Below the pieces are notes generated by a model that ran no database searches, was not told where the DNA came from, and worked only from the letters and a program-made list of their open reading frames with translations. A stretch of 64,000 bases of DNA, from NCBI RefSeq assembly GCF_034355335.1, contig NZ_CP136422.1, positions 3,196,501 to 3,260,500 of the forward strand. The letters run 5' to 3'. Shown in pieces: positions 9,650 to 47,144 of the stretch (the stretch's first letter is position 1; each line of letters starts with the position of its first letter). A program made the position numbers and the translations under genes. Source of the stretch: Blautia coccoides. Lineage in GTDB: Bacteria; Bacillota; Clostridia; Lachnospirales; Lachnospiraceae.

Positions 9650-10051
9650 CCGTTCGTTACCTCCATGTGATAGTGTTATTTCCATTTTATCATTACAGAG
9701 GCTGTTTTACCAGAAGGGATTTGGGATTCTTTGCTTCCGGACTGACATATTTGCTCCTGTTTTTTTCTGATGATACTTGTTAAACCTGCATTTCGGTATA
9801 CAAAAACGAGTTTTGCGCAGAAAGCGTTTTTATTGGTCTTTTCTTGTGCTATGCTGTAACTATATTTGGGGAATTTACCCATATAGAAAAAAAGACTAAC
9901 TATTAAAGAAAGTCAATAAATAGTTTCAAAAACAGAGATGTTTTGAGTATAGTGGCGATGACTTATTCATCGCAATCAGTACCTTGAAAATTGCATGACA
10001 AATAGAGCATCGAGTATGATGCTCTGACAAGAAGATATGATGTTGGAAGAA

Positions 10052-11227
10052 TTAGATTGCTTTTTGGTATTGCTGTCCAGTGCGTTCGAGATGATAAATT
10101 AGCCGAACTAGTTTCTTGGTCGCGTGAGACATTGCAACATAGTAATGCTTGCCTTCAGCTCGTTTCTTGGCAAGATAAGCCTTGTAGGTTGGATCCCATA
10201 GACAAACATATGCGGTTGCATTAAACAGAGCATATCTAAGGTATCTAGAACCACGTTTTTCCATTCTGGCATAACAGTTATCTAACTGGCCGGATTGATA
10301 GGTAGAAGGCGACATTCCTGCATAAGCAAGGATCTTATCTGGAGAGTCGAATTGGCTAAAGTCACCTATTTCAGCAATAATCATGGCACCCATTCGATAG
10401 CTGATTCCAGGAATGCTAAGGATTGGAGAATTGATTTCATCCATGATGACTTTAATCTCGTTTTCAATCTCTTCGATTTCAGAATCTAGCTCTCTAATGA
10501 GCTTAATGGTGTGCTTTAATTCAAGCGATTTAGCTGGCATATTTGAACCGATAGAGGTTCTTGCAGCCTCTCTAAAAGCGATAGAGGTTTCTTTTGTGTA
10601 GTGGCCTTTAGATGCGGTTTCAAGAAGATTTGAAAGTCTTGTGAGATGTGCATTAGCTACCTGTTTTGCACCAGGAAATTCGTAGAGTAACTCATAAACA
10701 GAATTCTGATGAAGTGTTGGAACAAGCTTTTCTAACTCAGGGAAAAGGATACATACAAGACGGGATATAGATGTTTTAAGCTTCGCGCGTTCTTTAACTT
10801 TATCAAAACGATAGCGAGTAAGTGACTTAAGCTCTTCGTTGTGATACGATGTGTCTGAGTAGGACTTTAAGTTCACGTCAGACATTAGCATAGAAGCAAT
10901 TGTATGGGCATCAACTTTATCCGTTTTCGTCTGTCTAAGGCTTAGACTTTTTCTGTACAGATTAGTATGTAACGGGTTGATAACAAAGGTGGCCAGACCT
11001 TTATCAAGCAGATATCCGAGAAGATTGTAACTATAGTGTCCAGTGGCTTCTAGGCCTACTTTTACTTTAGAAGCATCTTCCATAACGGATTCTATTTTCT
11101 GATAAAGCTCGTCGAACCCATCGAGATTGTTTTTGATGGTAAAAGCCTTGAAAAGGACTTCGCCATCAGAGTTTGTGATAAAGCAATCATGCTTATCTTT
11201 TGCGACATCAATTCCTACGTAAATCAT
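10052..11227 (-). CDS. IS110-family transposase (DEDD/Transposase_20), copy 1
   Basis: The 391-residue recombinase starts MIYVGIDVAKDKHDCFI, a RuvC-like DEDD domain, with GLEATGHYSYNL and QTKTDKVDAHTIA, the other acidic motif region. The C-terminal Transposase_20 part has LSIPGISYRMGAMIIAEIG, FAYAG-like ILAYAGMSPSTYQSG with the conserved serine, and GSRYLRYALFNATA. These enzymes integrate circular intermediates guided by an element-encoded RNA. The ATG at 11227 has AGGAGG about 7 bases upstream, better than the open frame's upstream ATG at 11272. The product is identical to that of copy 2. Confidence 0.95.
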   Translation of the reverse strand: MIYVGIDVAKDKHDCFITNSDGEVLFKAFTIKNNLDGFDELYQKIESVMEDASKVKVGLEATGHYSYNLLGYLLDKGLATFVINPLHTNLYRKSLSLRQTKTDKVDAHTIASMLMSDVNLKSYSDTSYHNEELKSLTRYRFDKVKERAKLKTSISRLVCILFPELEKLVPTLHQNSVYELLYEFPGAKQVANAHLTRLSNLLETASKGHYTKETSIAFREAARTSIGSNMPAKSLELKHTIKLIRELDSEIEEIENEIKVIMDEINSPILSIPGISYRMGAMIIAEIGDFSQFDSPDKILAYAGMSPSTYQSGQLDNCYARMEKRGSRYLRYALFNATAYVCLWDPTYKAYLAKKRAEGKHYYVAMSHATKKLVRLIYHLERTGQQYQKAI

Positions 11228-11279
11228 ATAGGACCTCCTGATATAAAGTATTGATACTGTCTTAAGATCCACAGGGCTC

Positions 11280-11415
11280 CTTGCAATCGTAACCTACTTC
11301 TTGATAAACCGTCATGCGGTAACTAACTGATTAACAAATAAACAAAGAGACTGTGGTTGGAGCCTTTTTTAAACCATCAAGTGGTAGGAGGTGATAACCA
11401 ATCCACAGTATCTTA
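11280..11415 (-). ncRNA. Predicted bridge RNA of IS110 copy 1
   Basis: In the noncoding stretch upstream of the transposase two stem-loops can be drawn. The 5' one (11409 to 11350) has stem ACTGTGG/CCACAGT and carries CACCTCCT (11393-11386) and AAAAAAGG (11370-11363). The former matches the left half of the target on the transposase strand including core CT; the latter is complementary to the right half (CCTTTTTT). The 3' loop (about 11335 to 11283) carries AGTTAGT (11328-11322), identical to the element's right end, and AGTAG (11298-11294), complementary to its left end CTACT. This is the order and strand logic of target-binding and donor-binding loops in IS621-type bridge RNAs. The transcript ends are guesses. 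Confidence 0.65.
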
Positions 11416-11489
11416 AAATAGCATAGTCAAACCTGTAGAAAAGGTAAAGAAAGACTATGACTTTATATAATAGTAGGAGGAATATAGGT

Positions 11490-14071
11490 ATGGAACAAAA
11501 AAGAAAGAGAGTAAGGAGACGTGTTACATCTATTTTTCTGGCGCTGCTTTTGTGCGTGAGTTCTGTCATGACAGTTTTGGCAGACGAACAAATAGTGCTG
11601 GACGAAAAGACAGCACCATCCGAAGAGACTCAAAAGTCTGGGGATCAGGGAAAAGACGATCTGACACCCAAAGAGGATATTACAGAAACTCCTGCCACCG
11701 ACACAAAGACAGATGAGACAGAAAACCCGGAGGACAAGGATTCCGAAGACCCGTCTGCAGGAAAAGAAGATGTAAGCACCGGTGAGGACGAGACAACGGC
11801 TGTGGGGAACGACATTTCAAACACAAATGAAATTACCCCCCCCCAAGAAAATCTGAGGAACAGATAACCAGTCCTTCCCCGGCTGTCAGCAGTCCTGAAA
11901 ACACAGAGGAGAAAAAGGAACAGCCGGCTCCTGAAACGGCAACAGCCGCGGTTCCCGCAGTTCAGGCTGCAGCCTCCTATCCGGTGACTTCAAACACCAA
12001 CATACAGATAAACTTAGCGTACACTTTCACCTGGTCCGGTACAGGTACCGAATCGGATCCATTTTACTATAGTACGAAATCCAGCAGCAGCAAGGATACC
12101 TTTATTGCGCAGACTACTGACGAGTTTGCCACGATCAATGGCCAGGTCCATACCTATACAGAACCCCTTTCCTTTGGCGCAAACACCATTGATCTGACCG
12201 TTGTCTCCTCAGATAAGTCAGCAACGGTACACTACCGAATAGAAGCTGACCGTACAAAAAAGCAACAGGGTGACTGGCCAAAATTCCTGGTCATTGTTTC
12301 TCCCAGTACAGCAGGTGAAGCTGACGGAAAATTTGCAGGCCTGGATACGGAAAGAACTTATGAGTACAAGCTCAATGGAACCCAGCAATGGATAGAAGTT
12401 CCTGCCGGTTCAGCGGAGATCACCGGCTTGAAGGCAGGTAATTACGATGTCCGGTACGGAGCTACGGATGAATATTCAGCCTCATATAATTCTAAAACTT
12501 TCACGATCCTGGACCCTGTTACCCGCAGTATTAAAGTCGCAGACAGCCTTCCCGATGATATCAAGAATATGATCGAGATTCCGTCCAGTGCAAATGCAGG
12601 CAGTACCGTAACGCTTAAAATGAAATTTTCGGAGCTGACGTTTGTGGAAGAAATTATTGTAACAGCGACAAAAAATTCGGGTGGTTGGACTAGCAAAACG
12701 GATACATATTTGCTTTCACAGGGTGAACCGTCACTTGAAAAGTATGACGGCAATAATTATGAGGTCAGCTTTACACTGCCTGACGGAGAATGTGAGATCA
12801 CTTCCGTGAAGCTGAGGCAGGGTAACTGGCATACAATATCTCATGATATTCTTAAGCTCAAGGTTACAGTAACACCTTCAGATCCATCAAAAGTAGTCAC
12901 TAAGAATGATATTTCCTATTACGAAAAGGGAAGTGAAGTAAAACTGTCAGTTGAGTCAAACCAGAACGTGATCGGTACATCTAAAGTTACCGCTTTTCGG
13001 GCGGAAGGAAAGAGTCAGACTGCAGGGACTTCACCGGATGGAAGCCCGATAAAAATCAATGTAAATGAAGACTTAACGGTCCTGGCGGATATCGAGATGA
13101 TACTTGCAGACTTTACCTATCTGGACGAATTGCTGAATACTAAAGTTCCCAATGATTTTACCATCTACACGGATGACAGTTGGTCTGAAGTCGACAAGGT
13201 CCTCTCTTTAGTTCCTAATATGAAAACAGTGACACAAAATAACCAGTCTTGGGTAGATGATTATGTAAGAACCCTTATCATAGCCCTGGATAATTTAGAA
13301 TACAGAGATGGAGATTATACAGAACTTATAGAGGCACAGAACCGGGTGCCCAAGGATTTAAGCCTCTATACCCCGGAATCTGTCAAAGCATTGCAGGAAG
13401 CACTTGAAGCGTCCAAACAGCCCATAGATGAACAGTGGAATATGTCAAAACGAGACGAAATGCAGGCACTTGCCGATAACTTGAACAAGGCTGTGGACAG
13501 CCTCCGTTTTATTCCCGGAGATTATACTGAGCTGGAGAAAGCCCAGAGCAGAGTACCAAAGGATTTAAGTATCTATACCCCGGAATCTGTCAAGGCATTA
13601 CAGGAAGCACTTGATGCGTCCAGACAGCCCGCAGCAGAAAAGTGGGATATCTCTAGAAGTGATGAAATACATATTCTGGCTGAAAACCTCAACAAAGCTG
13701 TGGATGGTCTGAAGCTCAAATCTGCGGATTACACTAAGGTGGAGGAAGCCAGGAAAAAGGTTCCAAACGATCTGAGTCTTTATACAAAAAAATCTGTTGA
13801 CGAACTGCAGAAAGCTCTGGACAGCGTAGTGGAAGGGCTTGATATCACACAGCAGGAAAAAGTAGACCGGATGGCTGAGGCAATAGAAAATGCCATTAAA
13901 GGTCTGGAGAAAAAATCTGCGGAACCGGGTAAAACTACTGCCAAAAAAGACACTGCCAAATCACCCAAAACAGGGGATGAGTCTTCTGTGGGATTCTGGC
14001 TGGCAGTGTGCCTTGGAAGCGCAATGCTTCTTTTGGCCGGAAATAAGGAGCGCAGATTTAAAAGTCGTTAA
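11490..14071 (+). pseudogene. LPXTG-like sortase-anchored surface protein, frameshifted in a C9 tract
   Basis: The first frame (11490-11867) encodes a signal peptide (SIFLALLLCVSSVMTVLA) and an acidic Thr/Glu/Lys-rich region, then stops shortly after nine C at 11836-11844. The next frame is open from the tract to 14071 and has no natural start. One added C (or two lost) would join them into about 860 residues. The second part has an Ig-like or beta-rich region, three FIVAR-like repeats of 69 residues starting at 13310, 13517 and 13724 (DYTELEKAQSRVPKDLS type), then SPKTGDESS, a membrane helix and a basic tail, the sorting signal of sortase substrates. It is probably a cell-wall adhesin in an off state. 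IS110 copy 1 also separates it from its native promoter. Confidence 0.85.
11836..11844 (+). repeat. C9 homopolymer, candidate phase-variation tract
   Basis: Nine consecutive C sit exactly where the reading frame of the surface protein breaks. Ten or seven C would restore the full-length frame. Such tracts mutate by slippage and often switch surface genes; a sequencing error is the plain alternative. Confidence 0.75.
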
Positions 14072-32882: not shown

Positions 32883-33039
32883 ACTAACTATTAAAGAAAG
32901 TCAATAAATAGTTTCAAAAACAGAGATGTTTTGAGTATAGTGGCGATGACTTATTCATCGCAATCAGTACCTTGAAAATTGCATGACAAATAGAGCATCG
33001 AGTATGATGCTCTGACAAGAAGATATGATGTTGGAAGAA

Positions 33040-34215
33040 TTAGATTGCTTTTTGGTATTGCTGTCCAGTGCGTTCGAGATGATAAATTAGCCGAACTAGT
33101 TTCTTGGTCGCGTGAGACATTGCAACATAGTAATGCTTGCCTTCAGCTCGTTTCTTGGCAAGATAAGCCTTGTAGGTTGGATCCCATAGACAAACATATG
33201 CGGTTGCATTAAACAGAGCATATCTAAGGTATCTAGAACCACGTTTTTCCATTCTGGCATAACAGTTATCTAACTGGCCGGATTGATAGGTAGAAGGCGA
33301 CATTCCTGCATAAGCAAGGATCTTATCTGGAGAGTCGAATTGGCTAAAGTCACCTATTTCAGCAATAATCATGGCACCCATTCGATAGCTGATTCCAGGA
33401 ATGCTAAGGATTGGAGAATTGATTTCATCCATGATGACTTTAATCTCGTTTTCAATCTCTTCGATTTCAGAATCTAGCTCTCTAATGAGCTTAATGGTGT
33501 GCTTTAATTCAAGCGATTTAGCTGGCATATTTGAACCGATAGAGGTTCTTGCAGCCTCTCTAAAAGCGATAGAGGTTTCTTTTGTGTAGTGGCCTTTAGA
33601 TGCGGTTTCAAGAAGATTTGAAAGTCTTGTGAGATGTGCATTAGCTACCTGTTTTGCACCAGGAAATTCGTAGAGTAACTCATAAACAGAATTCTGATGA
33701 AGTGTTGGAACAAGCTTTTCTAACTCAGGGAAAAGGATACATACAAGACGGGATATAGATGTTTTAAGCTTCGCGCGTTCTTTAACTTTATCAAAACGAT
33801 AGCGAGTAAGTGACTTAAGCTCTTCGTTGTGATACGATGTGTCTGAGTAGGACTTTAAGTTCACGTCAGACATTAGCATAGAAGCAATTGTATGGGCATC
33901 AACTTTATCCGTTTTCGTCTGTCTAAGGCTTAGACTTTTTCTGTACAGATTAGTATGTAACGGGTTGATAACAAAGGTGGCCAGACCTTTATCAAGCAGA
34001 TATCCGAGAAGATTGTAACTATAGTGTCCAGTGGCTTCTAGGCCTACTTTTACTTTAGAAGCATCTTCCATAACGGATTCTATTTTCTGATAAAGCTCGT
34101 CGAACCCATCGAGATTGTTTTTGATGGTAAAAGCCTTGAAAAGGACTTCGCCATCAGAGTTTGTGATAAAGCAATCATGCTTATCTTTTGCGACATCAAT
34201 TCCTACGTAAATCAT
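33040..34215 (-). CDS. IS110-family transposase, copy 2
   Basis: The 391-residue protein is identical to that of copy 1, with the DEDD domain in the first 150 residues and the Transposase_20 domain, including the conserved serine in AGMSPSTYQSG, in the last 130. The start at ATG 34215 is chosen for the AGGAGG upstream. The complete identity of the two copies means that one of them arose very recently. It is transcribed against the interrupted operon. Confidence 0.95.
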   Translation of the reverse strand: MIYVGIDVAKDKHDCFITNSDGEVLFKAFTIKNNLDGFDELYQKIESVMEDASKVKVGLEATGHYSYNLLGYLLDKGLATFVINPLHTNLYRKSLSLRQTKTDKVDAHTIASMLMSDVNLKSYSDTSYHNEELKSLTRYRFDKVKERAKLKTSISRLVCILFPELEKLVPTLHQNSVYELLYEFPGAKQVANAHLTRLSNLLETASKGHYTKETSIAFREAARTSIGSNMPAKSLELKHTIKLIRELDSEIEEIENEIKVIMDEINSPILSIPGISYRMGAMIIAEIGDFSQFDSPDKILAYAGMSPSTYQSGQLDNCYARMEKRGSRYLRYALFNATAYVCLWDPTYKAYLAKKRAEGKHYYVAMSHATKKLVRLIYHLERTGQQYQKAI

Positions 34216-34267
34216 ATAGGACCTCCTGATATAAAGTATTGATACTGTCTTAAGATCCACAGGGCTC

Positions 34268-34403
34268 CTTGCAATCGTAACCTACTTCTTGATAAACCGT
34301 CATGCGGTAACTAACTGATTAACAAATAAACAAAGAGACTGTGGTTGGAGCCTTTTTTAAACCATCAAGTGGTAGGAGGTGATAACCAATCCACAGTATC
34401 TTA
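34268..34403 (-). ncRNA. Predicted bridge RNA of IS110 copy 2
   Basis: Same sequence as the predicted RNA in copy 1. The target-type loop lies at 34397 to 34338 with CACCTCCT (34381-34374) and AAAAAAGG (34358-34351); the donor-type loop lies at about 34323 to 34271 with AGTTAGT (34316-34310) and AGTAG (34286-34282). The target here, read on the transposase strand, is CATCTC-CT-TTTTTT, so the left guide has one mismatch in six, and the right guide pairs with the core and at least five T. Confidence 0.65.
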
Positions 34404-34464
34404 AAATAGCATAGTCAAACCTGTAGAAAAGGTAAAGAAAGACTATGACTTTATATAATAGTAG

Positions 34465-40097: not shown

Positions 40098-40112
40098 TTT
40101 AAGGTAGAAATT

Positions 40113-40200
40113 TAAGGGAATGAGGTTCTCCCGTGGATATATTCCAAAAGCGCATTTTTGCTGATGACTTCTGTTTAACGACAGGGTTATCAGCTTTTTT
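40113..40200 (+). promoter_or_regulatory. Fluoride riboswitch (crcB motif) with terminator
   Basis: AAGGGAATGAGGTTCTCCCG followed by the AAAGCGCATTTTTGCTGATGA region and ACTTCTG match the crcB-motif aptamer. GCTGATGACTTCTGT pairs with ACAGGGTTATCAGC to form a terminator with TTTTTT (40195-40200). Fluoride binding should favour read-through into the CLC gene downstream. Confidence 0.92.
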
Positions 40201-47051: not shown

Positions 47052-47144
47052 ATGAATTTTATCTTAACTGATAAACTGAGAAGACGAATCATCTCCGTAC
47101 AAATAAAGTTTCCGGTGAGACATTGTGCGGAGTCCAGATCATAG
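47052..47144 (+). CDS. Leader peptide (30 aa) of the Mef-like pump
   Basis: ATG 47052 follows GAGGTGG and opens 30 codons (MNFILTDKLRRRIISVQIKF ending PVRHCAESRS). It contains Lys-Leu-Arg and Arg-Arg-Arg, the '+X+' motif at which macrolide-bound ribosomes are known to stall. Its 3' part contains one strand of the hairpin series that follows. A regulatory role by ribosome stalling is inferred. Confidence 0.65.
   Translation: MNFILTDKLRRRIISVQIKFPVRHCAESRS

Follow-up and report, generated by a model that had tools for sequence, protein, structure and literature searches.

What tells an insertion element where to insert? The window, by which we mean the whole 64,000-nucleotide stretch of Blautia coccoides DNA analysed here, raises this question because it carries two copies of an IS110-group element, both on the minus strand and both exactly 1,580 bp long between CT dinucleotides. 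An earlier note on this DNA had read the region upstream of the first copy's transposase gene as two stem-loops holding guides to the target and to the element's own ends, in the manner of a bridge RNA. We consider it very probable (roughly 0.93) that the element combines a recombinase with a left-end bridge RNA that is aimed at ribosome-binding sites. This reading is directly supported by the boundaries of the element, the fold of its left end, the covariation of guides with targets and with donor ends, the Shine-Dalgarno location of insertions and one empty site. The features of the element are:

9895..11474, minus strand: first window copy of the IS110-group element, 1,580 bp, a span exactly common to 18 full copies
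32883..34462, minus strand: second window copy of the element, 1,580 bp, inserted at ATCTC-CT-TTTTT
11475..11476, minus strand: left core dinucleotide CT of the first copy, seen in 18 of 18 full copies and in the half copy L020
9893..9894, minus strand: right core dinucleotide CT of the first copy, seen in 18 of 18 full copies
11477..11483, minus strand: left half of the first copy's target, from the sequence; with the core it gives AGGAGG on the plus strand
9888..9892, minus strand: right half of the first copy's target, TTTTT, from the sequence
10052..11227, minus strand: DEDD transposase (RNA-guided recombinase) gene, 391 aa, ATG at 11227, identified by Pfam, NCBIfam and alignment to IS621

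Twenty matches to the element were found in its own genome, a single 6.1-Mb contig, comprising 18 full and 2 partial copies; given that 16 of the full copies are identical and the other two carry one mismatch, the element has probably spread recently. All 18 full copies have a CT core at each end, there is no target duplication beyond it, the left end (247 bp upstream of the transposase gene) is longer than the right end (157 bp), and a short ATA/TAT subterminal repeat is present, the joined ends reading ATAGTTAGT-CT-ACTAT; these are features of the IS110 group. We sought an uninterrupted orthologous site using the joined flanks of copy L012, which match 19 of the 20 genomes searched, its own genome included. 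In the two closest of these genomes (L153 and L154; 87-88%), a single core lies in an unbroken AGAAGGAGG before the ATG of the same gene, which we take by eye to be rsfS. No near copies of the element were found in the plasmids and phages searched. Elsewhere in the genome (4889063-4916729; L151-L152), one copy of the element seems to be split by an insertion of ~26 kb, presumably a Tn916-type conjugative transposon judging by eye from its ORFs, among them an integrase-like ORF at L152 6111-7301.

The transposase carries both IS110 Pfam domains (PF01548 and PF02371), passes the NCBIfam model NF033542, "IS110 family RNA-guided transposase", with 206.2 bits against a cut-off of 140, and aligns to the structures of IS621 (8wt6, E 1.1e-20) and of another IS110-family recombinase, ISCro4 (9t56, 1.8e-19). 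Its four DEDD residues and the serine of YQSG correspond in the alignment to those of IS621, residue positions having been mapped by eye, and the roles of the DEDD residues and of the nucleophilic serine in IS621 are described in the excerpted text of PMC11208158. The protein thereby has the DEDD RuvC-like domain and the Transposase_20 domain with catalytic serine that mark the IS110 family, although it is distant from IS621 and longer, with 391 aa compared to 328 residues in the solved IS621 chain. The earlier note had proposed a new bridge-RNA recombinase with readable guides; the guides are indeed readable, but the family is already named as RNA-guided in NCBIfam. Relatives for comparison were the best 80 of 327 from genome contigs, which are 74-92% identical and many of which are titled Lachnospiraceae; the query carried one tyrosine before the ATG, and this did not affect the result.

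The noncoding left end holds the following features:

11422..11459, minus strand: 5' stem-loop CATAGTC...GACTATG, with which the putative bridge RNA starts; its pairing is seen in the minimum-energy fold of the single sequence
11351..11408, minus strand: putative target-binding loop, in which the stem CTGTGG.TTGG / CCAA.CCACAG (helices 1 and 2) closes an internal loop with an inner hairpin
11386..11395, minus strand: left target guide (LTG) ATCACCTCCT, core CT included, covarying with left flanks
11363..11370, minus strand: right target guide (RTG) AAAAAAGG, complement of C-CT-TTTTT, covarying with right flanks
11277..11350, minus strand: putative donor-binding loop (helices 3-5)
11322..11329, minus strand: left donor guide (LDG) CAGTTAGT, which matches the right end AGTTAGT
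11293..11299, minus strand: right donor guide (RDG) AAGTAGG, complement of CT-ACT(T)

Upstream of the gene, the 5' stem-loop is thus followed by a stem with a two-sided internal loop and then by a second such stem. A 29-pair structure derived with RNAalifold from 63 aligned elements forms in 99.2% of cells, and 31 of its cells are changed on both sides of the pair, where shuffles give 5.0 and slid controls 0-6. These 63 elements come from 76 leaders, 13 of which were dropped by hand, mostly because they were same-genome repeats or had odd lengths. Helices 1 and 2 of the target loop are paired in 98.7% and 99.6% of cells, with six pairs changed on both sides, and helices 3-5 of the donor loop in 98.8-100%. 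The fold of the single sequence is no better than that of shuffles (z of -0.75 and -0.60), so the loop structure rests on this comparison. No Rfam family matches the noncoding left-end region; elsewhere in the window, Rfam matches to a fluoride riboswitch and to uup RNA lie at 40107-40180 and 47083-47133. The compensatory changes bear out the two stem-loops of the earlier note, whose range of 11280-11415 covers both loops but omits the 5' stem-loop at 11422-11459 and the element ends.

Two internal loops in a conserved structure, target first and donor second, are the arrangement of IS621-type elements. The bridge RNAs of IS621 are established (PMC11208160, PMC11208158), and as far as the excerpted text of these two papers goes, the likeness extends to the left-end position of the RNA and its 5' stem-loop, to guides on both strands that include the CT core, to the handshake positions, to a -35 box in the right end and a -10 box in the left end, and to a recombinase with DEDD residues and a serine. 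The seekRNAs established for IS1111 and IS110 elements are likewise noncoding RNAs that direct target choice, with each element or group having its own target (PMC11187229, in excerpt). IS1111 differs in having subterminal inverted repeats and an RNA that lies mostly in the right end (PMC11208160, in excerpt), whereas the RNA considered here lies upstream of the transposase gene.

All of the guide, target and end matches that the earlier note had quoted are present on the transposase (minus) strand. The composite of the two target guides spells ATCACCTC-CT-TTTTT; the left guide has one or two mismatches in six, as had been stated, with two at the 11475 site and one at the second copy, and the right guide at 11370-11363 complements the core together with the right half of the target. 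In the second loop, AGTTAGT equals the right end (11329-11322, then CT), and AAGTAGG at 11299-11293 complements the left end CT-ACT. Across the own genome, all 18 full-copy sites score at least 8 of 12 guide positions, compared to 0.96% of 6,386 CT sites found in the DNA flanking these copies. Adherence to the left guide in that genome is loose from -4 to -9, where 5 to 11 of the 18 sites agree per position.

We then compared guides with flanks in the relatives, using 69 pairs on the left and 70 on the right, taken from the best 80 of 327 after removal of duplicates and of unreadable or short ends or loops. Left guides and left flanks agree at 417 of 621 positions, against a mean of 285.4 and a maximum of 328 in 20,000 permutations, and right guides and right flanks at 307 of 420, against a mean of 185.0 and a maximum of 218; the observed agreement was reached by 0 of 20,000 permutations on each side. 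The signal stays when one pair per guide is kept (312/468 compared to 204.5 on the left, 164/228 compared to 88.7 on the right), and it is clear at positions -1 to -7 and +1 to +5. Right-guide matches are poor at single loci (1/6 at L041, 2/6 at L027 and L075). Left ends were identified with patterns drawn from the four classes seen, so that a fifth class would have escaped detection. The loops of L035, L043-L046, L065 and L088 were not read automatically; for L043-L046 they were set by hand, as was the right guide of L065; the left ends of L033 and L082 were corrected by hand, and for L095, which has two left ends, the outer one was used. Left ends were unreadable in L026, L048, L065, L088 and L098, and right ends in L047 and L098.

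Such agreement might also be sought in a transposase protein that itself reads the CCTCCTTTTT target, the loops being merely structural or regulatory RNA such as a tnp leader, and the clade-wide preference for CTCCT, with which 42 of 65 left guides end, could partly reflect a fixed preference of the protein. Targets nevertheless shift with guides between elements whose scaffolds are 95-100% identical. Where right guides differ on scaffolds at least 95% identical, 39 of 40 pairs fit their own flank better and none fits it worse; where left guides differ, the own flank is better in 58 of 74 pairs and worse in 10, although these counts are not independent given that several pairs have members in common. 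The unusual right guides CCGTT, CCATT, AACTT, CGTAT and ATAAA have flanks to match, and we consider target reading by the protein exceedingly improbable. The earlier note had named relatives with the same loops at unrelated targets as the case that would speak against a bridge RNA; what the relatives display are guides that change with their flanks. Two observations on individual loci may be added. In L095, 87 bp are duplicated in tandem, between the core CT of the left end and the one within the element's left target guide, as though the guide's DNA had been used as a target. In L065, L067, L072 and L077, a likeness to the left end of siblings (CGTATTAT) is seen in the right guide, CATACGAGG or TATACGAGG, and in the right flanks, CGTATAA/CGTATTT; these elements possibly target sites of their siblings.

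The donor guides follow the element ends as closely. In 77 of 78 loci, three of them with AGTTAA, the six nucleotides of the left donor guide are identical to the right end, and the right donor guide matches the first two left-end bases after CT in 76 of 76, the left-end classes AC, CG, TG and GC being paired with donor-guide GT, CG, CA and GC. The covariation of LTG and RTG with the target and of LDG and RDG with the donor, with the core taking part in each pairing, is that of IS621-type bridge RNAs and sustains the bridge-RNA reading. A handshake rule for bridge-RNA guides is also described in the excerpted text of PMC11208158; in the form applied here, the base after the core complement pairs with donor -1 in the RTG and with target -1 in the RDG. 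This holds in 72 of 74 loci when G-T wobble is allowed, 64 of the 72 needing the wobble, and the misfits are L070 and L085. As 63 of the 74 loci are in one identical state, the information sits in the few loci that changed together, namely four with A/A and target T and three with T/T and A in both target and donor.

Joining the ends rebuilds TTGAC[T/A]-17-TA[T/C][T/A]AT, a predicted promoter, in 74 of 75 modelled circle junctions; in the window element, the -35 box TTGACT lies in the right end and the -10 box TACTAT in the left end. We propose that excision would join these boxes across the CT core into a promoter that should express the bridge RNA, that the donor loop would pair with the joined ends AGTTAGT-CT-ACT, and that the target loop would pair with one host-DNA strand on each side of CT. 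The element would insert pointing away from the gene, leaving the Shine-Dalgarno core on the gene and cutting off the DNA upstream. RNA expression, RNA-guided recombination and an effect on the gene are what we infer from the patterns above. A search for an outward promoter gave promoter-like sites at the level of chance (5 found, 4.6 expected), one of which, at 11391-11419 of the plus strand, is directed at the gene.

What the element targets is the Shine-Dalgarno sequence that precedes genes of the opposite strand, on which the own-genome target reads AAAAAAGGAGG or close to it. The earlier note had overlooked this, along with the resemblance of the left guide to the 16S anti-Shine-Dalgarno. 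IS621 differs in this respect, its target reportedly being REP sequences according to the title of a cited paper. Beside the first copy, the feature concerned is:

11475..11480, plus strand: Shine-Dalgarno AGGAGG, intact after insertion, before a plus-strand gene whose start codon, ATG, lies at 11490 (125 aa ORF from this ATG)

We scored insertion sites by a gene-start test, which asks for a start codon located 5-18 nt away from the core and an ORF of at least 50 codons, or at least 25 if it runs off the stretch, in 19 own left flanks and 69 distinct left flanks of relatives. The test is passed by 16 of the 19 own sites and 49 of the 69 relatives' sites, compared to 256 of 827 control occurrences (31%) of AGGAG anywhere in the flanks (Fisher p 3e-6 for own sites and 7e-11 for relatives). 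Three own sites and 20 relatives' sites fail; some relatives, such as L022 and L042, lie at other sites. The second window copy at 32883-34462 (row L009) has no start codon with an ORF by this test. The gene next to the first copy contains nine consecutive C (11836-11844) near the end of a 136-aa ORF (11457-11867), which may mean that the reading frame is shifted, that the tract is phase-variable or that the sequence is in error. Downstream of it, a 695-aa ORF (11984-14071) ends in an SPKTGD-like sorting signal, and this surface-protein-like gene contains two 188-nt direct repeats, 77% identical, at 13310-13704.

The composite guide, taken as ATCACCTC-CT-TTT, has 12 consecutive nucleotides identical to the 3' tail of Firmicutes 16S rRNA, the anti-Shine-Dalgarno, and the LTG has 10. 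This tail was confirmed in a Priestia record (L163), in which the bacterial SSU model of Rfam matches as far as GGATCACCTCCTTT, with CTAAGG following in the DNA; a search for the tail by pattern gave no match in the own genome or in 20 genomes of the genus, whose stretches there may be absent from the sequences searched or may differ. Given this resemblance of the composite to the end of 16S rRNA, the guides approximate the complement of a strong Shine-Dalgarno sequence, and insertion into ribosome-binding sites would follow.

The left guide might instead act at the RNA level as an anti-Shine-Dalgarno that pairs with the AGGAGGT of the transposase mRNA and limits its translation, as the LTG ACCTCCT is complementary to that sequence. 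This pairing is absent from the minimum-energy fold, however, and across relatives the guide agrees with its own tnp leader at 5.76 of 12 positions, compared to 5.65 under permutation, with 432 of the 500 permutations giving an equal or lower value, which is no clear tendency; nor is there a clear signal across relatives that guides avoid their own tnp Shine-Dalgarno. We regard such a role as highly unlikely.

Two accounts of why a target-binding bridge RNA should resemble the 16S tail come closer to one another. The Shine-Dalgarno preference may be a by-product of bridge-RNA recombination, in which purine-rich AGGAG motifs commonly match an inherited guide and start sites as such are unselected. 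Of 44 occurrences of AAAAGGAG alone, 25 pass the gene-start test, and the location of insertions is accordingly explained in large part by the motif; measured against this, own sites differ at p = 0.03 and relatives' sites at p = 0.09, a weak preference for start sites beyond what the motif gives. Exact CCTCCTTTTTT is unoccupied at 32 places in the genome compared to 45 for its backward reading, which points to neither exhaustion nor enrichment of perfect sites. Among 65 distinct guides, the window's included, the commonest bases at -4 to +4 are CCTC-CT-TTCT, and the clade conserves positions -1 to -4, but T is commonest at -5 and -6, where the tail has A and C. The relatives at other sites also fit a by-product, which we judge to fall just short of an even chance. 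The other account, which we hold tentatively and at somewhat lower odds, is that this bridge-RNA clade, spread over Lachnospiraceae and related Clostridia, keeps by selection a 16S-tail-like target loop, a "master key" to many Shine-Dalgarno sites in whatever host. The longest run common to guide and 16S tail averages 7.57 across the 65 guides, compared to 4.80 in 200 composition-keeping shuffles, and G stands at +3 of the gene strand in 55% of 73 relatives' targets, compared to 21% among the 121 ordinary Shine-Dalgarno sites taken from flanks. Both results run against a mere by-product, yet common ancestry of the guides could give both, and selection for 16S likeness is thus not proven. Were it true, the loop would let the element move between species and land next to genes rather than within them, with no need to learn its target anew.

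Start signals have a history as targets in this family. The target motif of IS900, an IS110-family element of Mycobacterium avium subsp. paratuberculosis, is CATGNNNNNNTCTCCTT in the excerpted text of PMC8141618. Read on the opposite strand, this motif gives a start codon and a Shine-Dalgarno sequence. IS900 is also said, in the title of a 1997 paper, to be an element that "targets translation initiation signals", and with this title and the motif, the aiming of IS110 elements at start signals is prior art. IS900 differs in having an antisense hed ORF, whereas here no plus-strand ORF of at least 80 aa lies over the transposase. Our search, which covered mainly open-access papers, found no literature linking bridge RNA, seekRNA or IS110 guides to Shine-Dalgarno sequences or ribosome-binding sites. 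The present reading offers a guide-level explanation for the long-known insertion of some IS110 elements at start signals, and suggests that an RNA-guided transposon can be both specific and generalist by aiming at a sequence that every host must keep. The 65 distinct composite guides of close relatives, most with their insertion sites, form a natural series from which the specificity positions of a bridge RNA may be learned.

Homing to Shine-Dalgarno sequences seems to occur in more than one IS110 subfamily of this genome (L131-L145). Families B (9 copies) and C (6 copies), whose transposases are 26-28% identical to that of the window, are likewise located in Shine-Dalgarno-like sequences, but their transposase is encoded on the same strand as the gene, in an arrangement that reads AAAGGAG, element, GGAGG-N-ATG; 10 of these 15 copies pass the start-codon test. 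The five copies of family D, examined by eye, are not in Shine-Dalgarno-like sequences. In the leader of the family B transposase (L131 876-946), TACCTCA ... TGAGGTA can be seen by eye, a hairpin that could hide the element's own Shine-Dalgarno sequence.
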